DNA of 14,290 nt from Cyanobacteria bacterium UBA11370 (lineage in GTDB: Bacteria > Cyanobacteriota > Cyanobacteriia > Cyanobacteriales > Coleofasciculaceae). The position numbers were made by a program, and so were the translations under genes. The notes under the pieces were generated by a model. That model saw only the letters and a list, made by a program, of their open reading frames with translations. It searched no databases and was not told where the DNA came from. Positions 360 through 11,932 of the stretch are shown piece by piece; the stretch's first letter is position 1, and each line of letters begins with the position of its first letter. The stretch lies in assembly GCA_003486645.1 (NCBI GenBank), contig DNGI01000490.1, positions 1 through 14,290 of the forward strand. The letters run 5' to 3'.

Positions 360-1640
360 GTGCAAGTTGTTAAAGAGTACGTTCAACGCTGGTATGAGAG
401 TGGACTTGATCCCGACGAATATGTTTGTCATCAGAAGCGGGGAAACTTCGTCGAGATTGAATCGGTAGCGACAGGGAAGCGTCAGACTGTTCTAACGTTC
501 TGCACTAATGATGTGTTGGGACTGGTTCAGAATGAGGCGGTACGCCAAGCGGCAATCGATGCCATTTTTGACTATGGTACGTCAAACAGTTCGACTTCGG
601 TGTTAAGTGGTCGCATTGATTTACATCGCCAGCTAGAAAAAGAGATTTCTGAGTTTAAGCACTTACCCCATACTCAGCTATTTCTCAATGCTTGGATGGC
701 AATGCAAGCGTTGATGGATGCCTTCTGTCATTTAGCGATTCCAGTGCCGGGTTTCCAACATACTAGGGAAACGTTGATTATGACAGATGTTCTTAACCAC
801 GGCTGTATTGTGGCGGCTGTGGTTAATGCGGGGACTCGTTCGGGTAAAGTGTTTAGTCATAGTCCGCGTGTGCGGGTTAAGGCTTACCGCCACTGCGATA
901 TGGAGGATTTGTCACGGAAGCTACATCGCTATGTTCGTCCTGGCGATCGCGTGATGGTGGTTTCGGATGCGGTATTCTCAATGGATGGAGATATTGCCCC
1001 GCTACCGGATATGATTGATGTGCTGCAAAAGTATGAAGGCAGCGTGTTAGTTATGGATGAAGCTCATGCTAGTGGCGCGATTGGAGCAACAGGTAGGGGT
1101 GTTTACGAATATTTTAATATCCTGCCGCAAGATGTCATTGATCGGGGACTTGTTCCCTTAATTATGACCACATTCTCCAAATTTGCGGCTTCCGCTGGGG
1201 CGGCAATTAGTAGTCATGTGGCAGAATTAATCCCCCTGTTGAATGTGTCTCCCACTTCCATTGGTACGATTTCATTATCGCCACCTTTAACAGCAGCCGC
1301 ATTGGAAAGCATTCGGCAAGTTCGCCGTCATCCCGAACTCGTGAAGAAACTTCAGGCGAATACTCGTTATTTGCGATCGCGCTTACTGGAACAAGGATTT
1401 AATGCCATTGGCGAAACCAATGTAATTCCGGTTATTTTACCACCCGACATTAATCCTAAAATGTTTGGTCGCTTGATGGTGGAGAATCATGGAGTTTGGG
1501 TTTCACCGATTTGGTTTATTGCCAAACCTCGTATCCGAATTACCGCTAACGCCCTCCATACTCAAGAAGAAATGGATCGCTTAGTTTCCGCGATGGTCGC
1601 AACGCGAGACTTGTTGTATAAACCAATGATTAGTGCTTAG
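360..1640 (+). CDS. PLP-dependent alpha-oxoamine synthase family enzyme (AONS/KBL/SPT-like)
   Basis: This is a 426-aa fold-type I PLP enzyme of the alpha-oxoamine synthase family. Members condense an amino acid with an acyl thioester and release CO2 (8-amino-7-oxononanoate synthase, 2-amino-3-ketobutyrate CoA ligase, 5-aminolevulinate synthase, serine palmitoyltransferase). Visible landmarks are the ring-stacking histidine in LNHG (H147, where the family usually has NHAS), the DEAH motif (D233 and H236) that contacts the cofactor, and the Schiff-base lysine in TTFSK (K274). Length is close to the usual ~400 aa, with a slightly longer N-terminus. The start is GTG, preceded by a good Shine-Dalgarno. 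The next gene, 195 bp downstream, is a GNAT-fold acyltransferase. That makes a sphingoid-base synthase (serine palmitoyltransferase-like) role attractive. Substrate cannot be read from the motifs: biotin or threonine metabolism remain possible, but no bio or tdh gene is nearby. The family call is strong and the substrate is inference. Confidence 0.9.
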   Translation: MQVVKEYVQRWYESGLDPDEYVCHQKRGNFVEIESVATGKRQTVLTFCTNDVLGLVQNEAVRQAAIDAIFDYGTSNSSTSVLSGRIDLHRQLEKEISEFKHLPHTQLFLNAWMAMQALMDAFCHLAIPVPGFQHTRETLIMTDVLNHGCIVAAVVNAGTRSGKVFSHSPRVRVKAYRHCDMEDLSRKLHRYVRPGDRVMVVSDAVFSMDGDIAPLPDMIDVLQKYEGSVLVMDEAHASGAIGATGRGVYEYFNILPQDVIDRGLVPLIMTTFSKFAASAGAAISSHVAELIPLLNVSPTSIGTISLSPPLTAAALESIRQVRRHPELVKKLQANTRYLRSRLLEQGFNAIGETNVIPVILPPDINPKMFGRLMVENHGVWVSPIWFIAKPRIRITANALHTQEEMDRLVSAMVATRDLLYKPMISA

Positions 1641-1692
1641 TTGTTGGTTGTTTGTTGTTGGTTGTTTGTTGTTGGTTGTTTGTTGTTTGTTA
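1641..1692 (+). repeat. Short tandem repeat array, 14-bp unit (STRR type)
   Basis: Three perfect copies of TTGTTGGTTGTTTG run from 1641 to 1682, followed by a degenerate partial copy. The array begins at the base directly after the TAG stop of the oxoamine synthase. Its reverse complement recurs at about 1797-1864, so the two arrays could pair in the transcript or as a cruciform. Confidence 0.9.
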
Positions 1693-1796
1693 CGCATAAA
1701 GCCTTAAGCTATTCCACATTGTAATTGCATCACTTCCACGGGCAAGATACCCATCCCACGCCTAGTTTGAACAATAGTGTAGATGTGAAACAGCTT

Positions 1797-1864
1797 ACCA
1801 ACAACTAACAACCAACAACCAGCAACTACTAACAAATGATAAACAACCAACAACCAACAACAAA
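1797..1864 (-). repeat. Inverted short-repeat array overlapping a start codon
   Basis: Degenerate copies of CAACAACCAACAAC-type units form the reverse complement of the array at 1641-1692. About 15 consecutive bases pair perfectly (for example 1841-1863 against the GTTGTTGG units). The array runs through the ATG at 1836 and encodes residues 3-9 (NNQQPTT) of the acyltransferase. Confidence 0.85.
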
Positions 1865-3029
1865 ATTTCAAATTCAGGCTGTAAACACTCCAGAAGAACT
1901 AGAACTATTTCTAGATGTCCCAGCACAAGTTTATGCCAATGATCCCAACTGGGTGCCACCCTTACGAAGTGATATAGCCAAACACTTTGCACCCAGTAAT
2001 CCATTCTTTAGCTACGGAAACCTACAACAATTCATCGCCCTTACCCAAACAGACAACCCATCCGTTACATCCGCTACAAAATCCGCTGCCAAAGGGGTAG
2101 TAGCAGTAGGAAGAATTGTCGCTGCTATTAATCAACGTTTAATTGAACGAGAAGGCAAACGTATCGGTTTATTTGGCTTTTTTGAGTGTATCCCAGATTT
2201 TGCGATCGCTCAATCTCTTCTCAATGCTGCGTCGGAATGGCTACGAGAACAAGGAATGACAGTAGCACGAGGACCAATTGATTTATCAACTCACAACAAT
2301 TGTTTGTTTTTAGTTGATGGGTTTGACTCACCCCCAATGATTATGATGCCATATAATCCATCCTATTATCCTAACTATATGGAACAGGATGGTTGGCATA
2401 AAGCTAAAGATGCCTATGCCTATGATTTCCCCTTAGATCAGTCCCTATCTGATAAATTTGAGAAAGGGTATCGGATTGCGTGTAAATCCGGTATTACATT
2501 CCGCCCTTTGAGAACAAAAGGGGAAGGATTTGAGCAAGATGTTAAGAGTATTTATCATCTTTTTAACCGTGCCTTTGCCAATAACTGGAGTTCTGCGCCT
2601 AGAACTGAGGAAGAATTTCTAGAAGAAGCAAAAGCCTTACAAACTTTGGTCGATCCGGATGTCTTTCCCATCGCGGAAGATAAGGGGGAAATGATTGGGT
2701 TTTGGATGGGATTACCGGACTATAATATTGCTCTAAAACACGTTGGTGGCAAACTAAACTGGTTGGGAATTATCAAATTTTTGTGGTATCGTCGCCAAAT
2801 CGACCAAGGACGAGTGATAGCGATTTGTTCGCTACCCGAGTATCGCCGAAAAATGGTACCCCTTGGTTTAATTTATTTAGGAATGCAAGGCGGAATTCAA
2901 AAGGGTAAGCCCTATAAACGGGCAGAACTCGGTTGGGTTTGGGAAGATAATTTTCCCTCGCGTAAGATTATTGAAGCAGCAGGAGGGAAGATTTATAAGA
3001 CTTACCGCATTTATGAAAAAGCACTATAG
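1836..3029 (+). CDS. GNAT-fold N-acyltransferase, YghO-like; candidate bacterial ceramide synthase
   Basis: This 397-aa protein matches what I know of the large YghO-like GNAT family. Landmarks are DPNWVPPL (36-43), NPFF (55-58), GLFGFFEC (111-118), ARGPIDLSTHNN (144-155), DGFDSPPMIMMPYNP (161-175) and a C-terminal GWVWEDNFPS segment with a GGK(I/Y) turn typical of the last GNAT strands. It is about twice the size of a simple GNAT, consistent with two tandem GNAT halves. No signal peptide or membrane segment is apparent. Bacterial ceramide synthases characterised in Caulobacter are GNAT-like acyltransferases encoded near serine palmitoyltransferase. The neighbouring oxoamine synthase therefore suggests that this enzyme could acylate a sphingoid-base intermediate. 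That is inference: a general amino-group acyltransferase fits equally well. Residues 3-9 come from an inserted short-repeat array. The ATG at 1836 has no clear Shine-Dalgarno, but there is no other Met before residue 141. Residues 70-87 look like a low-complexity linker. Confidence 0.82.
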   Translation: MINNQQPTTKFQIQAVNTPEELELFLDVPAQVYANDPNWVPPLRSDIAKHFAPSNPFFSYGNLQQFIALTQTDNPSVTSATKSAAKGVVAVGRIVAAINQRLIEREGKRIGLFGFFECIPDFAIAQSLLNAASEWLREQGMTVARGPIDLSTHNNCLFLVDGFDSPPMIMMPYNPSYYPNYMEQDGWHKAKDAYAYDFPLDQSLSDKFEKGYRIACKSGITFRPLRTKGEGFEQDVKSIYHLFNRAFANNWSSAPRTEEEFLEEAKALQTLVDPDVFPIAEDKGEMIGFWMGLPDYNIALKHVGGKLNWLGIIKFLWYRRQIDQGRVIAICSLPEYRRKMVPLGLIYLGMQGGIQKGKPYKRAELGWVWEDNFPSRKIIEAAGGKIYKTYRIYEKAL

Positions 3030-3493
3030 CAGTTCTCAATTGGATGAAATACAAATTTCTAGGTTTTAGGGAGTGAGGAGATGGGGGGATGGAAAAAGTA
3101 AAATCCCAAATCTAAAATGGTATTAGTTCTCAGGCGCTGAAAACCTCGCTAAACTCGTCCATCCTTAGATTATCTCTACAACACGACACTACGCTCTCGA
3201 AAGCTGAAAAATTCTTCCGGATTTATTCATCAACTCTTGAAAGGATAGTTAGGTAAGCCGTCTATCGTCCAGCTCCTAAGTGGTTGGATTCCTGATCAAG
3301 GTGAGATTTTCTAGTTAAAAAAATACTCCTCACTTCTATTCTAAATTATGTATAAAGCGGAAACTAAATCCTTTAGGCAAAATAAATAAAATCTTTACAA
3401 ATCCTTCAACTAAACTGTAGCCATTTTTACAATAAAATTGCTAAAAATAAACAGTCAGGTTCTGATTAAATTCAATCCTTAATGGAGACAAAT
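3030..3493. other. Gene-free stretch upstream of the protoglobin gene
   Basis: The stretch starts with a segment (about 3028-3050, around AGCAGTTCTCAATTGG) that I recognise as a type of dispersed cyanobacterial intergenic sequence. A G-rich purine tract follows (3069-3099). Next is AAAATCCCAAATCTAAAAT (3100-3118), closely related to the arm of the inverted repeat at 4693-4710. The last 150 bases are AT-rich and probably hold the promoter of the protoglobin gene, but I cannot name a convincing -35/-10 pair. No coding region is apparent. Confidence 0.5.
3484..3487 (+). promoter_or_regulatory. Shine-Dalgarno that decides the protoglobin start
   Basis: GGAG here lies six bases before the ATG at 3494. 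It overlaps the in-frame upstream ATG at 3482, which has no ribosome binding site of its own. The true start is therefore probably 3494. Confidence 0.65.
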
Positions 3494-4048
3494 ATGGCTT
3501 TGGATGCCAGCACCTTTTTGATCACTATGGTTAAGCGGATTGGCTTAACTGATCAAGACAAAACTTTACTAAAAGCTAATGCAGATTGGGGAAAAGAAAT
3601 CGCTCCGGAGATGGCCGATCATTTCTATGCTTACTTAGGTAACGATCCAGAAATGAATGCTATTTTAAATAGCACAGAAGACCGCATCCATCGTCTGCGG
3701 GTAACTTTTGTTGAATGGTTCTACGAAATGTTTACAGGCATGGATGACTGGGGTGATGCCTATGCCGATCGCCGTTGGCGTATTGGTGTTGTCCATGTGC
3801 GAATTGGCATTGGCCCTCAACATGTTGTTCCGGCTATGGCGACTGTAGTTCGTGAAGTTAGTAAACGACTAAAAACGGATAATAAATCTGAAGCACTCCA
3901 GGACGCTCTCAGTCGGATTTGCATGATCGATTTAGCCTTCATTGAGCAAGCCTATGTAGAAGTAAGTTCAGCAGCAGTTCTGAAAGAAACGGGTTGGACA
4001 GAGGGACTATTCAAACGTCTCATTACTACGGGTGCAAGTGGTGTATAA
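3494..4048 (+). CDS. Single-domain protoglobin / globin-coupled-sensor-type haem protein
   Basis: This protein (184 aa from the preferred start) is a protoglobin/globin-coupled-sensor-type globin. These bind haem and sense or react with O2, NO or CO. The best evidence is the F-helix segment RIGVVHVRIGIGPQHVVPAM. Its first histidine (H101 from the 3494 start) is the expected proximal haem ligand and is followed by the family's HVRIG signature. Upstream, a helical stretch ending DDWGDAYADRRW also fits the family. There is no histidine kinase, methyl-accepting or GGDEF output domain. The globin stands alone, so any signal must pass through a partner. The obvious candidates are the roadblock protein 80 bp downstream and the GTPase after it, all on the same strand. 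An alternative start at 3482 would add four residues but lacks a ribosome binding site. The family is clear; coupling to the GTPase module is inference. Confidence 0.88.
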   Translation: MALDASTFLITMVKRIGLTDQDKTLLKANADWGKEIAPEMADHFYAYLGNDPEMNAILNSTEDRIHRLRVTFVEWFYEMFTGMDDWGDAYADRRWRIGVVHVRIGIGPQHVVPAMATVVREVSKRLKTDNKSEALQDALSRICMIDLAFIEQAYVEVSSAAVLKETGWTEGLFKRLITTGASGV

Positions 4049-4128
4049 CGGTTTGGTTTACGAGTTGTCAAACCTAAGAATGAACTCCATCACAATTTCT
4101 GAAATTTGAGTATCAACAACAACAAACA

Positions 4129-4500
4129 ATGGCTATCAATTCTCAAAAACTAGGGCAAATTCTTCAAAGCTTTGTAACAGCAACGGCTGATGTACAAGGT
4201 GCGGCAATGGTCACGCCTGACGGTTTACCCCTTGCTTCTAGTTTGCCTGGTGGTATGGATGATGAGCGGGTATCTGCAATGTCGGCGGCTATGCTTTCGT
4301 TAGGTGAACGAATTGGGAAAGAACTGGTACGAGGTTCTATTGATCGGATCTATGTTGAGGGTGATGAAGGCTTTAGCATTTTGACTAGTTGTGGTGAAGA
4401 TGCGGTCTTTTTGGTGCTGGCGGGAAAGGCGGCTAAACAGGGAGTCTTGATGTTAGAAATTAAACGAACGCTCGCTGAATTAAAACCCGCTTTGCAGTAG
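4129..4500 (+). CDS. Roadblock/LC7 domain protein (MglB-like)
   Basis: The 123-aa protein is a single roadblock/LC7 domain: an N-terminal helix (residues 4-18), then the strand-turn segment VQGAAMVTPDGLPLASSLP (22-40), a long helix (44-65), and strands IDRIYVEGDEGFSILTS and AVFLVLAG before a final helix. Bacterial roadblock proteins dimerise and act as GTPase-activating or effector partners of small Ras-like GTPases, as MglB does for MglA and as in Streptomyces conservons. A small GTPase gene follows at 4850. The gene starts 80 bp after the protoglobin and may share its transcript. No clear Shine-Dalgarno precedes the ATG, and the immediately upstream bases are ACAACAAACA, similar to the short repeats elsewhere in the window. 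Cytoplasmic, with no membrane segment. Confidence 0.9.
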   Translation: MAINSQKLGQILQSFVTATADVQGAAMVTPDGLPLASSLPGGMDDERVSAMSAAMLSLGERIGKELVRGSIDRIYVEGDEGFSILTSCGEDAVFLVLAGKAAKQGVLMLEIKRTLAELKPALQ

Positions 4501-4849
4501 GCAAGGCGAGTTGGTCAAATAATTTTAGATTTTGGATTCTTTCCAACTACTCGTGCCCATCAATTTTGGATTTTACATGGGTGGTGTAACAATTTTTCCT
4601 CCTCTATCAGGGCATAAAGTTTGGAGAGCTAGGATTGACAATTTAAGAGTTGCTTCACCCACTAGGGACGAGACATGAAGCCAAAAATCCCAAATCCAAA
4701 ATCTAAAATTCTTAGTCAAGAGGAAGTTAAATTCGGAGTTGAATGGAACCCCATATCTGAGAAAGATGTGTTATTCAACAAAGCAATTGCCTGATCTCAG
4801 GAATCTTGTCAGTAATAAATTTTGGTGAGTTTTTGCGGAGCCAAATCAA
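4501..4849. other. Gene-free gap between roadblock and GTPase genes
   Basis: The gap holds the 190-bp segment bounded by inverted repeats (4521-4710), then about 140 bases leading to the GTPase. A GCGGAG sequence (4835-4840) lies nine bases before the ATG at 4850 and is a plausible ribosome binding site. No coding region is apparent. Confidence 0.6.
4521..4710. repeat. MITE-like segment with perfect 18-bp terminal inverted repeats
   Basis: AATTTTAGATTTTGGATT at 4521-4538 is the exact reverse complement of 4693-4710. Inside the arms there is weaker inverted similarity, for example TGGGTGGTGTAAC near 4577 against the complement of TTGCTTCACCCA near 4652. A second, partial copy of the arm motif (TTTTGGATTT) lies near 4564-4573, and a related sequence occurs at 3100-3118. 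I see no open reading frame and no obvious target-site duplication. This is consistent with a non-autonomous element or with a dispersed intergenic palindromic repeat. Confidence 0.6.
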
Positions 4850-5482
4850 ATGGAAACCATGCGCGTAGTTGTAACAGGAACAGTTGGGGCTGGTAAGTCT
4901 ACTTTTGTGCGAACGTTTAGTCAAACACCTGTGGTAGACACAGAACGCAAAGCTACTGATGAAACATCTTTATTAAAGAAAAAAACCACTGTTGCTTTCG
5001 ACTTTGGTACTCGCGCTTTGGGACGGGATATAGAACTACAAGTCTATGGAACTCCGGGTCAATCTCGGTTTGATTTTATGTGGGATCTTTTGATTCGGAG
5101 GGCACACGCTTATATCCTACTTGTAGCAGCTAATCGCTCCAATTCTTTCAATGATGCTCGTGACATTCTAACGTTTATGAATCAGCGAGTCCAAGTTCCA
5201 ATGATTATTGGTATGACGTGTATGGATCTACCAGGAGCACTAGGTCAAGAGCATATTTTGTTTGGTTTAGGCTACATGAATGATAAACATCGACCTCCTA
5301 TTGTGGCGGTTAATCCTAATGATAGAACTTCAGTATTTGAAGCGCTGATGGTTTTGATGGCTCATCAAATTTTTCATGGTGATAGTAGTAAGCTTCATCC
5401 GGGAACTATCACCGGAAGTAATCAACCTAATTCGCCGAATTCCCGCAGTACTTATCAATGGCCTAAGCGGCAGTTGTCATAA
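4850..5482 (+). CDS. Small Ras-like GTPase of the bacterial MglA/COG2229 type
   Basis: The 210-aa protein begins with a P-loop at residues 10-18 (GTVGAGKST). A switch I threonine lies in KKTTVAFDFG (T46 or T47). The G3 position is VYGTPGQ (65-71), where the classical DxxG Asp is replaced, as is common in bacterial MglA-like and SRP-receptor-beta-like GTPases. The G4 motif NKxD is degenerate (GMTCMD, 121-126), and the G5 loop appears as VNPND (154-158). Residues after about 173 form a Ser/Pro/Asn-rich tail without predicted structure. Such GTPases work with roadblock proteins as molecular switches in cell polarity, motility or signalling. The roadblock gene upstream fits that. Ribosome binding site GCGGAG is nine bases before the ATG. 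A second ATG at residue 4 is possible. The specific pathway is unknown. Confidence 0.87.
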   Translation: METMRVVVTGTVGAGKSTFVRTFSQTPVVDTERKATDETSLLKKKTTVAFDFGTRALGRDIELQVYGTPGQSRFDFMWDLLIRRAHAYILLVAANRSNSFNDARDILTFMNQRVQVPMIIGMTCMDLPGALGQEHILFGLGYMNDKHRPPIVAVNPNDRTSVFEALMVLMAHQIFHGDSSKLHPGTITGSNQPNSPNSRSTYQWPKRQLS

Positions 5483-5540: not shown

Positions 5541-5670
5541 TAATGGCTAATGGCTAATGGTTAATGGCTAATGGCTAATGGCTAATGGCTAATGGCTAAT
5601 GGCTAATGGTTAATGGCTAATGGTTAATGGCTAATGGCTAATGGCTAATGGCTAATGGCTAATGGTTAAT
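5541..5670 (+). repeat. Heptanucleotide STRR array, TGGCTAA/TGGTTAA, about 18 units
   Basis: The unit TGGCTAA repeats about 18 times with no spacer. Several units carry a C-to-T variant (TGGTTAA). Contiguous 7-bp tandem repeats are typical STRRs of filamentous cyanobacteria. The same unit in opposite orientation forms the array at 8932-9066. Confidence 0.95.
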
Positions 5671-5755: not shown

Positions 5756-6246
5756 AGAGTTAGGGGAGACAAGAGAGAGGTATTTTACAAATCATTTAGA
5801 CTGGCTATAGAGGCGTTAGGATTGTCTGGGCGATCGCACCCGTTTATCCCACTGGTGAATAGATTAGGCTATTATAGAGGATGAATCGGTACTATCCGTT
5901 ATAGTCACCTCTTTACTGAGTATCGTACCTTATCCCATTGAGTCAAGGTAAATACGCTGATTGCGATCGCTCTTCCCTGACCGTGCAAAATCCGGGTAGA
6001 GGTTAGTTTATTGCCAATAAGTGGTGGTGATTTGGGGTTTGTTTTTCTGCAAACTACGGGTGTTGCTCAAAGTAGTTCGGCGGAAGAATGACGACCAAAG
6101 GATTCAGCGTGTTTACTCATCCTCGGAAATGGGTGCGATCGCAAACCCTATATAATTTATTTAGTTAAATTTATATCAAAATTATATCAAAAATCAAAAT
6201 CTTAATGCTTTAATTAAGTGTATTACAAATAGGTTTGTTGTCTGTC

Positions 6247-8403
6247 ATGATGGGGCGCATTTTATCCGATCAAAACCGCTCAAACTCCCTCAGTGATGAG
6301 AGTCAACTCAAGGAACAAGGCATTCACCAGGCTCAGGAAGTCATTTATCAGTTTCTGATCAAGAGTGTTAATCAAGCTAATCCAGAGACTGTTTTAATGG
6401 AATTTAAACAGTTATTTTGGATTGGTGAAAATCTTGTCGATCCCAATGTTAATCAAGCTTTACATCAGATTGTTAGCAGCAAGAATGAAGAAGAATTCAG
6501 GAATACTTTAAAAAGAGCCTGCTATATTTTGATTAACAATTGGTCTTCTAAGAGGACGACTCAACCGATCAAAGAACTCATTCAAATCCTGGCAGAAGTA
6601 CCCATTGAACAACCGACACTGGCTCCTACTTTAAATCGCATTAGGACGTTCATCAGTAATTTTATTACTAGCCAAGATTATCAAGAACTGAAACTATTTG
6701 CTTCCCCTGATAATCTGGATGCGAAACGTCATTGGACTGAGCGTTACACCTCTTATTTATTAGTTCCTCAATATCTCGATTCTCGAAACCCAATCGAACA
6801 ACGAGAAATTGCGAAAAATCTCTCAAAACGCCTTAAAAAACAATTTAAACTTGAGCTGGCGATGTACACAGCTCGTTGTGATTCACCGACATTTCAGGAA
6901 GGCAGAATTCCTAACCCAACCCGGCTAGGAGATAAAGCAATTCGCTTAATTAAAAAAGTTAGCGCCCAGCATCTGTCCTTTAGTTATGTTAAACACGCTG
7001 CTCATTTCCTGCAACAGGTCAAAACGACTAATTATATAGAGTTTAAAGAAAAAATCCATAAGTACTTGATTTTCGCAGGGCATCAAAATTCGTCTTTAAA
7101 ACTCCTAGATGATCAACTGAATCCTAAACTTAATCATCTTTATGCCAATCATGAATCAAAGCCTTTAACAACTGAGTTATTGCTGCGAACCTGTCGGCGG
7201 CTGATTGAATTTTTGACAACTGAAGATGGTCAGGAACCTTCTCCCTTATTTATTCTACTCACCACTCAAGGCAGTCCACTAACTATAGTGATTACCTTGT
7301 TAAAAATTATTTTGATTTGCAAGAATGCTCAAACCCATCTAGAAGTTTGCATTGCCAAGTTAATTCTCTATTACGAAAATTCTGGAGAAAAGGAGTGTAA
7401 ATGGCTGATTGAGTTTTTGGAAATTTTCAATATTGTCTTTACGATTTACAATGAAGATATTCAATATAATTTAATCAAAATACATACTCAAGATAATGAT
7501 TCAGAAAATCCGTACCTGATTGATCTCGATGCTTACCGAGTTTTCTCTCAATTGAAAGGTGCTGACTTGCGGGCAGCGGATCTCAGCGGTCTTGACATCC
7601 GAAATAGTGATTTAATTGCGGCGGATCTGCGGGATGCTGATTTGTGCGGGGCTGACCTCAGTCACGCTGATTTAAGCCTTGCCAAACTCACTAGTGCTAA
7701 ATTAATCGGAGCCACGCTCAATCATACTGAATTTAGCAGCGCCATGCTCAATAGTGCGGATTTGAGCAGTGCTAGCCTGAGAAATGCGGATTTGCGTTGT
7801 GCAAACCTGCGATTGGCAAATCTCAACAGTGCCAATTTGACGGCGGCAAAAATGCGTCGAGCTGATATACAACGGGCTGATTTGAGCCATGCTAACCTCA
7901 GCCATGCTAGTATGAAAGCTTGCGATCTTCGAGGCGCTAACTTAGACCATGCTGACCTTAGTCATGTTAACCTCTGCTATGCTAACCTCTGTTATGCTAA
8001 TCTTAGCCATGCTAATCTCAGAAGTGCTGAACTAAGGCGTAGTAAGCTGCACCATGCCAACCTCAGCGAAGCTAATCTAGATCGTGCTAATCTCACTTAT
8101 GCGAGTTTAAAAGGTATCAACCTCAGCGGTGCGGACTTGACTCGCGTAGACTTGAGTGGTGGGAATTTGAGTGATGCTGATCTCAGCAATGCTCTCCTAC
8201 GCCACGTCAATCTTAATGGTACTAATTTAAGTAATGCTAATCTGAGCGGCGCTAACTTATTTGGTACTAATCTTAGCCGCGCCAAGGTGAAAGGAACTTA
8301 CTTTAGTAAGAATTCAGGATTATCTGAGGAAATGAAATTAGAATTAGAACAGCAAGGTGCGATTATTGAGGAAGAATCTGACGCGATAGAAGATTCATTT
8401 TGA
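6247..8403 (+). CDS. Large pentapeptide-repeat protein with helical N-terminal domain
   Basis: The protein has about 718 aa. Roughly residues 1-435 are predicted mostly alpha-helical and soluble. I do not recognise this part as a known domain. It contains one hydrophobic stretch (PLTIVITLLKIILI, about residues 342-355) that is more likely a buried helix than a membrane anchor. From about residue 438 to 686 there are some 50 tandem A(D/N)LXX pentapeptides, which should form a right-handed quadrilateral beta-helix of about 12 coils. The C-terminus is short and acidic (EEESDAIEDSF). The reading frame can be extended to TTG codons at 6235 or 6238. The tandem ATGs at 6247 and 6250 seem better starts, although no strong ribosome binding site decides it. 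The length resembles the cyanobacterial HglK protein, but HglK has four N-terminal membrane helices, which are absent here. Role unknown; pentapeptide beta-helices usually serve as protein-binding scaffolds. It converges with the next gene, 39 bp apart. Confidence 0.88.
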   Translation: MMGRILSDQNRSNSLSDESQLKEQGIHQAQEVIYQFLIKSVNQANPETVLMEFKQLFWIGENLVDPNVNQALHQIVSSKNEEEFRNTLKRACYILINNWSSKRTTQPIKELIQILAEVPIEQPTLAPTLNRIRTFISNFITSQDYQELKLFASPDNLDAKRHWTERYTSYLLVPQYLDSRNPIEQREIAKNLSKRLKKQFKLELAMYTARCDSPTFQEGRIPNPTRLGDKAIRLIKKVSAQHLSFSYVKHAAHFLQQVKTTNYIEFKEKIHKYLIFAGHQNSSLKLLDDQLNPKLNHLYANHESKPLTTELLLRTCRRLIEFLTTEDGQEPSPLFILLTTQGSPLTIVITLLKIILICKNAQTHLEVCIAKLILYYENSGEKECKWLIEFLEIFNIVFTIYNEDIQYNLIKIHTQDNDSENPYLIDLDAYRVFSQLKGADLRAADLSGLDIRNSDLIAADLRDADLCGADLSHADLSLAKLTSAKLIGATLNHTEFSSAMLNSADLSSASLRNADLRCANLRLANLNSANLTAAKMRRADIQRADLSHANLSHASMKACDLRGANLDHADLSHVNLCYANLCYANLSHANLRSAELRRSKLHHANLSEANLDRANLTYASLKGINLSGADLTRVDLSGGNLSDADLSNALLRHVNLNGTNLSNANLSGANLFGTNLSRAKVKGTYFSKNSGLSEEMKLELEQQGAIIEEESDAIEDSF

Positions 8404-8742: not shown

Positions 8743-9061
8743 AGTGATTCTCCGATGCTCCTTGGTTTTTCGATTTCTCCAAACTACCTCAAACCAAAGG
8801 AAATTAACCATCCTTCATCAAAACTTTGCAAAACCCTACCTCTAGCTACATACAATTAAAATCATTCGCCAAGAAAAATTACAGCAGAATTCAGGTGTCA
8901 TCAAGTCAGGAGTAGAACAGACTTTATTGTTATAGCCATTAGCCATGAACCATTAGCCATTAGCCATTAGCCATTAGCCATTAGCCATTAGCCATTAGCC
9001 ATGAACCATTAGCCTTTAGCAATTAGCCATTAGCCATTAGCCATGAACCATTAGCCTTTAG
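8743..9061. other. Gene-free stretch dominated by the second heptamer array
   Basis: This holds the ribosome binding site and presumed leftward promoter of the 99-aa gene, about 100 bases without recognisable content, and the inverted heptamer array. No coding region is apparent. Confidence 0.5.
8749..8753 (-). promoter_or_regulatory. Shine-Dalgarno that decides the 99-aa protein start
   Basis: GGAGA on the minus strand is placed six bases before the ATG at 8742. It supports the shorter protein over the in-frame ATG at 8811. Confidence 0.65.
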
Positions 9062-9066
9062 CTAAA
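8932..9066 (-). repeat. Inverted heptanucleotide STRR array, TTAGCCA, about 19 units
   Basis: About 19 units of TTAGCCA, the reverse complement of TGGCTAA, are interspersed with variants (TGAACCA, TTAGCCT, TTAGCAA). The right end runs into the TAG stop codon (9062-9064) of the hydrolase gene. Together with 5541-5670 it brackets the pentapeptide and 99-aa genes in inverted orientation. Confidence 0.93.
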
Positions 9067-10557: not shown

Positions 10558-11205
10558 ATGCAACCTGATTTACAGGGTCTAGAAATTACTAAAGGAGAAC
10601 TAAAGCGCTGTAGTGGTGTGAGTATTGATGCGGTTTTTCACCCCCCAACTCTCCCGAAATTCTTAGCGGAGATCGCAAAAACTTTGCTGATCATTAGTTT
10701 AATCGGTTTCAGTGGTTTTGTTTTAAGTCAGGTATTTTTAGAACATTTGTTCGCAATCCTTATCCTGCATATTGGTTTTGCGGTTGGTTTAGTATGTGAT
10801 GATATTCGCAAAATTTGGATTAGTTACCAGTGCAAAAATTTGGTCAGGATATTTGAAGATGTTCAGCGATATAATTCTGTCATTAAAGCTATTGATATCA
10901 ATGATCAAATTGAAGCAGTCGGTAATCGAGGTGTGCGCTTGAAAAATCGGCAGCAGGTACTTCACGCTCTACAATTAGCCAGACAGGATATTATTAGGGC
11001 ATTAAAAACTGAACGAATTTTACGAGAAAATCAAACTTTTATTAAATTAAATTCCGAGCTATTTGATACTAATTTAGTTGCGTTGACTGCCTTGCAAGTA
11101 AGCGATCAGGCAACTGAACATGGACGACTGCTTAATGAAGCATTACAGATTGTTGTAGATGTGCAACGAGAGATGAGAAAATTACAAAATCAGCGTGGAG
11201 AATAA
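10558..11205 (+). CDS. Two-TM membrane protein, paralogue 1
   Basis: The protein has 215 aa. A ~38-residue soluble N-terminus opens with MQPDLQGLEI. Two closely spaced hydrophobic helices follow (about 40-58 and 63-81), then a mostly helical cytoplasmic-type C-terminal domain. That domain carries RYNSVIKAIDINDQ (104-117), ERILRENQ (152-159) and LLNEALQIV (191-199). No known family is recognised. The next gene encodes a close paralogue, about 60% identical over the C-terminal domain by my hand alignment. The identical first ten residues of the two proteins confirm the ATG at 10558, despite the lack of a clear ribosome binding site. The short soluble head, 2TM hairpin and helical tail are topologically reminiscent of SLATT-type membrane effectors, but I see no sequence motif that proves it. 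It probably forms an operon with the two genes downstream (49 and 27 bp gaps). Confidence 0.75.
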   Translation: MQPDLQGLEITKGELKRCSGVSIDAVFHPPTLPKFLAEIAKTLLIISLIGFSGFVLSQVFLEHLFAILILHIGFAVGLVCDDIRKIWISYQCKNLVRIFEDVQRYNSVIKAIDINDQIEAVGNRGVRLKNRQQVLHALQLARQDIIRALKTERILRENQTFIKLNSELFDTNLVALTALQVSDQATEHGRLLNEALQIVVDVQREMRKLQNQRGE

Positions 11206-11254: not shown

Positions 11255-11932
11255 GTGCAACCGGACTTACAGGGTTTAGAAATTTCGATTGGAGAACTCA
11301 GACATTTGAGCGGTGTTGAACCCACGGATGTTTTTAGACTAACAATTCTGAAAAATCCAAAAGCACGATGGAGTTTTTTCTTCCAAGAATTTATTCTCAG
11401 TTTGGCATTAACACCCGTTATCGTTGGTTTACTTCACGTCTTTATTATTTTACCTTTTATCGGGGCTTCTCTAGGTATAACCAGTGCCATTCTGATCTTA
11501 GTGCCAATTGCCATTATTAGCTGTCGGTGGTTCGGGTTACAACGCAAAAAGCAGGGAACTCTAGGCTATTTGTTGGATGAAGTGGAGCGATATAATGCTG
11601 TGATTAAAGCGATAGATATTAATGACCAATTGGAAGCAGCAGGAACTATCCAAATCAGTTTAAGCGATCGCCAAAACGTCATTCAAGCCCTAACGTTAAT
11701 CAGGCAAGATTTATTAAAAGCGCTGAGGGCTGAACGAATTTTACGGGAAAATCAAAGTTTTATTAGTAGTAATTCAGAACTATTAATCAGTAATTTGAGA
11801 ACGTTACAAGCGTTGCAAGTGGATGATCAAGCTAGTGAATATGGACACCTGCTAAATGAAGCGTTGCAGATTGCGACTGGTGTTTCTGAAGAGATGAGAA
11901 AATTACATAATAATAGAGCTAATTTATCCTAA
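11255..11932 (+). CDS. Two-TM membrane protein, paralogue 2
   Basis: This 225-aa paralogue of the preceding gene starts with GTG. It shares MQPDLQGLEI at the N-terminus and a highly similar C-terminal domain, including ERYNAVIKAIDINDQ (111-125), RAERILRENQ (158-167) and LLNEALQI (199-206). The first ~30 residues are similar and the membrane part diverges strongly. Its two hydrophobic helices (about 46-68 and 70-92) are longer and differ in sequence. This pattern of conserved soluble domain and divergent membrane segments suggests that the C-terminal domain is the functional core and that the two may form a heteromer. No named family is recognised. The tandem arrangement indicates local gene duplication. 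Confidence 0.75.
   Translation: MQPDLQGLEISIGELRHLSGVEPTDVFRLTILKNPKARWSFFFQEFILSLALTPVIVGLLHVFIILPFIGASLGITSAILILVPIAIISCRWFGLQRKKQGTLGYLLDEVERYNAVIKAIDINDQLEAAGTIQISLSDRQNVIQALTLIRQDLLKALRAERILRENQSFISSNSELLISNLRTLQALQVDDQASEYGHLLNEALQIATGVSEEMRKLHNNRANLS

Follow-up and report, generated by a model that had tools for sequence, protein, structure and literature searches.

Roadblock proteins and small GTPases are encoded side by side in described prokaryotic systems. In the MglA/MglB system, a roadblock gene lies next to the gene for a small Ras-like GTPase, and the available sections of one account (PMC11016934) give MglB as both GAP and GEF for MglA, state that unknown factors could sequester the exchange-active helix of MglB, and call an N-terminal strand, beta-0, unique to MglA. 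The actinobacterial conservons, or AGPS (CvnA-D), bring together a roadblock protein, a small GTPase, and a dedicated sensory partner in one operon; their input is the histidine-kinase-like CvnA, with CvnC in addition (sections of PMC13343842 and PMC4316618), and one conservon includes an accessory protein by which the kinase is stimulated (PMC13343842, same sections). PATAN genes near roadblock and small GTPase genes go back to Makarova 2006, as cited in the consulted part of PMC4316618, the main text of which uses the word globin 0 times. As far as the partly available literature goes, chemosensory systems and histidine kinases are the inputs named so far for prokaryotic small-GTPase switches.

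A haem globin coupled to a roadblock has been described in HGbRL of Methylacidiphilum infernorum, a single fused protein with a globin of the HGbI/flavohaemoglobin type, for which its authors suggest that a signal is relayed from the globin to the roadblock domain; in the available part of that paper (PMC4476040), the protein is said to be limited to Methylacidiphilum, and a PATAN partner is not mentioned. In the open-licence literature, the only relevant matches for globin and roadblock were HGbRL and work on the related HGb-I, and no paper joining a protoglobin with a roadblock was found there.

The window analyzed here, a 14.3-kb stretch of cyanobacterial DNA taken as a whole, has three genes in a row on the plus strand (Table 1): one for a stand-alone protoglobin, one for a Roadblock/LC7 protein, and one for a Ras-type GTPase, as a sequence-only reading had proposed. 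ORF calls and Pfam agree on all three: the globin scores 80.8 bits against Protoglobin PF11563 (cut-off 25), the roadblock 55.8 bits against Robl_LC7 (cut-off 23), and the GTPase 46.1 bits against ATP_bind_1 and 40.0 bits against Ras. In contrast to the single chain of HGbRL, globin and roadblock are separate ORFs, the globin is a protoglobin, and the genes belong to a multigene module. The globin is of the same family as those of the globin-coupled sensors (HemAT, GcHK, DosC), but in these the sensor is fused to its output, whereas the window globin has no fused output domain, stands alone, and would act in trans. Neither a CvnA-like kinase nor CvnC is seen in the module, which has globin, PATAN, and V4R instead, and kinase families are absent from the 12 window ORFs scanned with Pfam. 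The earlier statement that no described system of this composition is known has to be narrowed, because HGbRL and the PATAN-MglA/MglB neighborhoods were already in print. The parts are known; what appears to be new, judging from the genes, is the combination of a haem globin, as putative input, with a regulatory module of roadblock and GTPase.

Table 1. Features of the protoglobin-roadblock-GTPase locus, in window coordinates
Feature	Position	Strand	Remarks
Stand-alone protoglobin gene	3482..4048	+	188 aa; likely start 3494, 184 aa
Tyr49 codon, distal side	3626..3628	+	Aligned with Tyr45 of GcHK 5ohe
His105 codon, proximal haem ligand by alignment	3794..3796	+	Aligned with 5ohe and 2w31
Globin C-terminal tail, residues 160-188	3959..4045	+	More conserved than globin core
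Roadblock/LC7 protein gene	4129..4500	+	123 aa
Roadblock-GTPase intergenic gap	4501..4849	.	349 bp
MglA-like Ras-superfamily GTPase gene	4850..5482	+	210 aa
P-loop (G1), GTVGAGKS	4877..4900	+	G1 in 86/86 family members of L001-L080
G3 motif YGTPGQ	5045..5062	+	TPGQ in 86/86 family members of L001-L080
Non-canonical G4 motif TCMD	5216..5227	+	Relatives mostly THxD

Given this arrangement, we lean towards the view that the locus represents a conserved cyanobacterial module in which the haem protoglobin feeds sensory information into a switch made of roadblock and small GTPase, usually paired for its output with a DUF4388 protein that lacks a receiver domain. DUF4388 is a domain that we take to be PATAN. 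By analogy with the GAP/GEF control exerted by MglB and with the conservon accessory protein, the globin is likely to serve as sensory partner, with the state of its haem determining how active the roadblock is, the PATAN protein being the likely effector arm. Beyond the linked genes and their intact haem residues, the steps are inferred: the genes would be co-transcribed, and globin and roadblock would come into contact. Binding or loss of a gas ligand, which may be O2, NO, or CO, would produce a change in the globin in which the conserved C-terminal tail perhaps takes part. The changed globin would alter, in one direction or the other, the effect of the roadblock dimer on the GTPase, whether on hydrolysis of GTP or on its exchange. 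The GTPase, together with the PATAN protein, would then work on some polar apparatus, for which the motor of type IV pili is the most plausible candidate. Contact between PATAN and PilB has been reported in Synechocystis, and HGbRL, in which a globin of another class is fused to a roadblock, offers an independent hint at globin-roadblock coupling. If true, haem gas sensing in trans would join the inputs to prokaryotic small-GTPase switches, oxygen-producing phototrophs would have a direct route from the level of O2 or NO to the state of a GTPase and perhaps to pilus polarity, and the protoglobin family known from Thermosynechococcus would gain a role. The analysis suggests an as yet unstudied system through which cells could be steered by a gas, for example oxygen or nitric oxide.

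The globin start at 3494, given in the sequence-only reading, fits the family better and is likelier than 3482, because 109 of the best 120 of 627 homologues are 184 aa long. The protein consists of a globin domain (19-160) and a short tail, with no further Pfam domain at E<=0.001. Its closest solved structure is 8h17, which is Tlr1989 (E 1.1e-87), followed by the haem sensor globins of GcHK and GsGCS. The haem residues of AfGcHK are Tyr45 and His99, and Tyr49 of the window globin aligns with the former. The proximal histidine noted earlier is indeed present: His105 and Tyr49 both occur in every aligned row (93 of 93, with the window globin among them). A regular expression drawn around the proximal histidine was over-strict, finding 71 of 83 globins, while the alignment has the residue in all rows. 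Within the 93 rows, the mean frequency of the top residue is higher in the tail (0.859 for residues 160-184) than in the core (0.795 for residues 20-159). A 194-aa protoglobin of Thermosynechococcus elongatus appears in the consulted part of PMC1457004, the family having been known since early protoglobin surveys. In the open-licence literature, neither a paper naming Tlr1989 nor a function for the Thermosynechococcus protoglobin family was found.

These residues also bear on the idea that the globin has turned to sensing bilin or light, akin to the bilin biosynthesis-associated globins (BBAGs), and feeds phototaxis. Such a change is very improbable, even though PATAN proteins serve phototaxis, a cysteine (Cys147) is near-invariant (92 of 93 rows), and some cyanobacterial bilin-type globins cluster with V4R proteins according to the available part of PMC10151467. 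The proximal His and distal Tyr are invariant, haem sensor globins come next after 8h17 among the solved structures, and none of the 83 module globins of L001-L080 has the CXRD motif, the only cysteine of the window globin being found in CMID. The same part of PMC10151467 gives CXRD for BBAG-1, BBAG-3, and many phycobiliproteins, while BBAG-2 also is without it; consequently, the case against the BBAG-2 branch rests on the haem residues.

The GTPase had been called MglA-type, and MglA-like it is, but with two departures from the GTPases of Myxococcus and Thermus, apart from the linked globin. The open frame is 217 codons long for a protein of 210, so that at most 7 residues could precede Met1, and with so few there is no room for a beta-0 strand. 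In a predicted model, the first strand comprises residues 2-10 and residue 1 aligns with residue 10 of MglA chains such as 3t1q and 6izw; residues 178-210 are modeled with a pLDDT under 50. Furthermore, the G4 motif is TCMD instead of NKxD, and among 86 family members of L001-L080 it is THxD in 80, TCxD in 2, and TYxD in 1, with no match in 3.

Globin and roadblock genes are 80 bp apart, and a search of the 349-bp gap downstream of the roadblock gene for plus-strand promoter-like or terminator-like sites found none; its one terminator-like site lies on the minus strand (4753-4734). Between 3030 and 5700, the plus strand has one promoter-like site (3090-3118) and two terminator-like sites, both within coding sequence, and the minus strand has two promoter-like sites and one terminator-like site. 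These totals (3 promoters against 6.7 expected, 3 terminators against 1.9 expected) are uninformative. An RNA element was also considered and rejected, the window having no Rfam match at gathering score.

The neighborhood is conserved well beyond the strain. Among 147 stretches encoding close relatives in the genome collection, the best 80, all titled cyanobacterial, were kept, and within 3 kb of the globin these have a roadblock in 77 loci, the GTPase in 68, DUF4388 in 47, and a V4R-like gene in 39; in the subset of 56 loci whose flanks reach 4 kb or more in both directions, the counts are 54, 50, 41, and 29, respectively. A chance neighborhood is unlikely because the roadblock is so regularly present and a module gene is on the opposite strand in only 1 of the 80 loci. 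The phylum sample, 244 genomes chosen to avoid globin-biased sampling, gives the same picture. The globin is patchy here, with 26 copies at E<=1e-30 in 19 genomes, and within 5 kb, always on the same strand, are a roadblock for 20 copies, a GTPase for the same 20, and DUF4388 for 18; all 19 globin-bearing genomes have at least one globin-roadblock pair. Thus, a chance or strain-specific neighborhood is rejected on the phylum sample together with the 80 fetched loci, and the adjacency that the sequence-only reading wished to see surveyed extends across the window's class.

Protoglobin matches of every kind in the phylum sample number 33 in 24 genomes: the 26 of module type, one in G054, and six others (in C421 of the window's own genome, G041, G021, and G121, and two in G004), which served as a control and, compared by eye, show no roadblock gene in the 5 kb around them. 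Of the 244 genomes, 44 possess roadblock genes, and 20 of these 44, counting G054, have a module globin. Module globin and roadblock are found together in 20 genomes, the globin alone in 0, the roadblock alone in 24, and neither in 200; the Fisher test (p 1.7e-17) ignores shared ancestry and so overstates independence, and shared ancestry inflates all of the linkage counts. More weight belongs to two observations, the replacement of the globin in some modules (see below) and the fact that the genes stay linked although their order changes. With G for globin, R for roadblock, T for GTPase, and P for DUF4388, the commonest core orders among the 80 loci are PTRG (14), GRTP (12), and RTPG (6).

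It could be argued that the adjacency reflects the shared ancestry of a gene block under little selection, the globin having no role in the GTPase switch. Related genomes do share blocks, and clusters of roadblock, GTPase, and PATAN without a globin exist (G091; G060 C16), so that the globin is not obligatory. However, the orders have been rearranged with the linkage kept, the linkage occurs in eight GTDB-style families (f1, f5, f6, f12, f22, f23, f24, and f27), and two globin lineages occupy one slot, as described below; we regard ancestry by itself as a quite unlikely explanation. A plasmid-borne or mobile module was rejected: the globin has no plasmid match, and the 12 plasmid records for the roadblock are all under 60% identity. 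Six of the 26 globins in the phylum sample lie away from any roadblock (5 kb). Second globin copies of this kind, without a roadblock within 5 kb, are seen in family f6 (L095, L096, G074:C1, G153:C139, G048:C188, and G072:C4).

In two genomes of one genus, the globin of the module has been replaced by that of another lineage. In this slot, G054 has a protoglobin sharing 28% identity with the window globin and G534 one sharing 24%, the two being 71% identical to each other. At both loci the roadblock, GTPase, and PATAN are of the module's own kind (in G054, identity to the window proteins is 69% for the roadblock and 55% for the GTPase; G534 has roadblock, GTPase, and DUF4388). The named relatives of the G054 globin among the best 120 of 380 matches are a Halothece protein (81%) and then proteins of Chloroflexi and one Deinococcus (55-61%). 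A tree of 40 rows groups the 17 canonical module globins in a single clade (99/99) and places that of G054 with the Halothece type in a separate one (100/98), although the deep root is uncertain because of four long-branched outgroup rows, and a long branch (5.5) leads to the canonical clade. This Chloroflexi-like type was met in 1 of 388 class-sample genomes and in 2 of 9 family genomes, and both genomes found with it hold it inside the module; the other 25 matches in the class sample are 25-33% identical to the query, like the canonical type. Since a distant protoglobin fills the slot while the rest of the module is of the usual kind, the module most likely needs a globin, though not always the same one. 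G121, of the same genus as G054, was considered as a carrier of a module remnant and rejected: it has only a weak protoglobin match with an internal stop, and the 10 kb around it contain no module gene at E<=1e-3. The conserved tail is missing from the G054 globin and present in unlinked globin copies.

Replacement of the globin also matters for another explanation, in which the globin acts on NO or O2 as scavenger, dioxygenase, or buffer and is merely co-expressed with roadblock, GTPase, and PATAN, without any crosstalk. Stand-alone protoglobins can be enzymatic, as the consulted part of the literature on M. acetivorans protoglobin indicates, and two aligned copies among the unlinked ones, L095 and L096, retain haem residues and tail. 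In addition, a gene for an NAD(P)-binding protein like saccharopine dehydrogenase recurs on the same strand as the module in 8 of the 80 loci and at a second module of the window's genome on C75; its product could in principle donate electrons. Against this explanation stand a linkage to signaling genes that persists through several orders and a slot refilled from another protoglobin lineage, and there is no flavin reductase among the ten recurring neighbor families scanned; it is judged somewhat unlikely. The one kinase among the same ten families is a Ser/Thr kinase, seen in 6 of the 80 loci. A search for a Rosetta-stone fusion of protoglobin and roadblock found none among the best 120 of 627 and the best 120 of 380 matches. 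The globin as sensory input remains the best-supported reading, and the original proposal is partly supported. It is weakened by the six unlinked copies, the clusters that have no globin, the patchy distribution of the globin, the small number of genomes with a replaced globin, and, in the window, the 349-bp gap and the lack of a linked PATAN.

The composition of three genes was correct as far as it went, but the module is larger. A DUF4388 protein is linked in 18 of 19 globin-bearing genomes, the exception being the window's own, and Pfam finds no receiver domain in 52 module DUF4388 proteins. Frequent further members are a V4R/Bet3-fold protein or a hemerythrin. The window itself has no DUF4388, V4R-like, or hemerythrin gene in its 14.3 kb and is a short form (globin-roadblock-GTPase), the PATAN partner of which would need to come from elsewhere in the genome. 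The C75 module has a globin 77%, a roadblock 88%, and a GTPase 61% identical to those of the window, together with two V4R-like genes and a further roadblock. A linked PATAN is missing from both modules; eight DUF4388 matches are found on other contigs. A third protoglobin of this genome, in L090 (G000 C421, 3146-4057), is fused to STAS and lies beside small regulator-like genes; it presumably resembles the oxygen-sensing stressosome type.

The V4R genes invite comparison with the TRAPP complexes, in which Bet3-fold and longin subunits act on Rab: many modules add a V4R/Bet3-fold protein to roadblock and GTPase. In a prokaryotic counterpart, a roadblock dimer, a ligand binder of the V4R/Bet3 fold, and a haem globin or hemerythrin would form a GAP/GEF gated by gas or metabolite, and the GTPase with the receiver-less PATAN would set where or whether type IV pili work. 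That proposal is unlikely. In contrast to TRAPP, the module has a roadblock and not a longin, the best fold match of the V4R protein is MopR and not Bet3, and V4R is absent from the window although present in two copies on C75. Were it true, it would provide a route for aerotaxis or an NO response without chemoreceptor, kinase, or phosphorylation. If the main reading is true, the V4R/Bet3 partner offers a prokaryotic setting for testing how the Bet3 fold and roadblock came to co-regulate GTPases.

Other features were seen around the modules and in the window. An NB-ARC/TPR protein gene adjoins the module on the same strand in L001, L003, L024, L025, L033, and L047, and a ChuX/HutX-like (haem utilization) gene lies near it on the opposite strand in 20 of 80 loci (for example, L048 8412-8816). 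G278 (L143, L144) has two globin-roadblock-GTPase-DUF4388 operons, with a hemerythrin beside one only. Positions 360-3029 of the window contain a gene for a BioF/Kbl-like PLP acyltransferase and then a GNAT-like gene, neither of which lies beside the module in the 80 other loci. Downstream are two heptamer arrays of 18.6 copies each, TAATGGC at 5541-5670 and TAGCCAT at 8933-9062; the two units are reverse complements in rotation, and thus the arrays form an inverted pair of short repeats around a pentapeptide-repeat gene (6235-8403). Two adjacent paralogous ORFs (10558-11205 and 11255-11932), without Pfam match, both start with MQPDLQGLEI.
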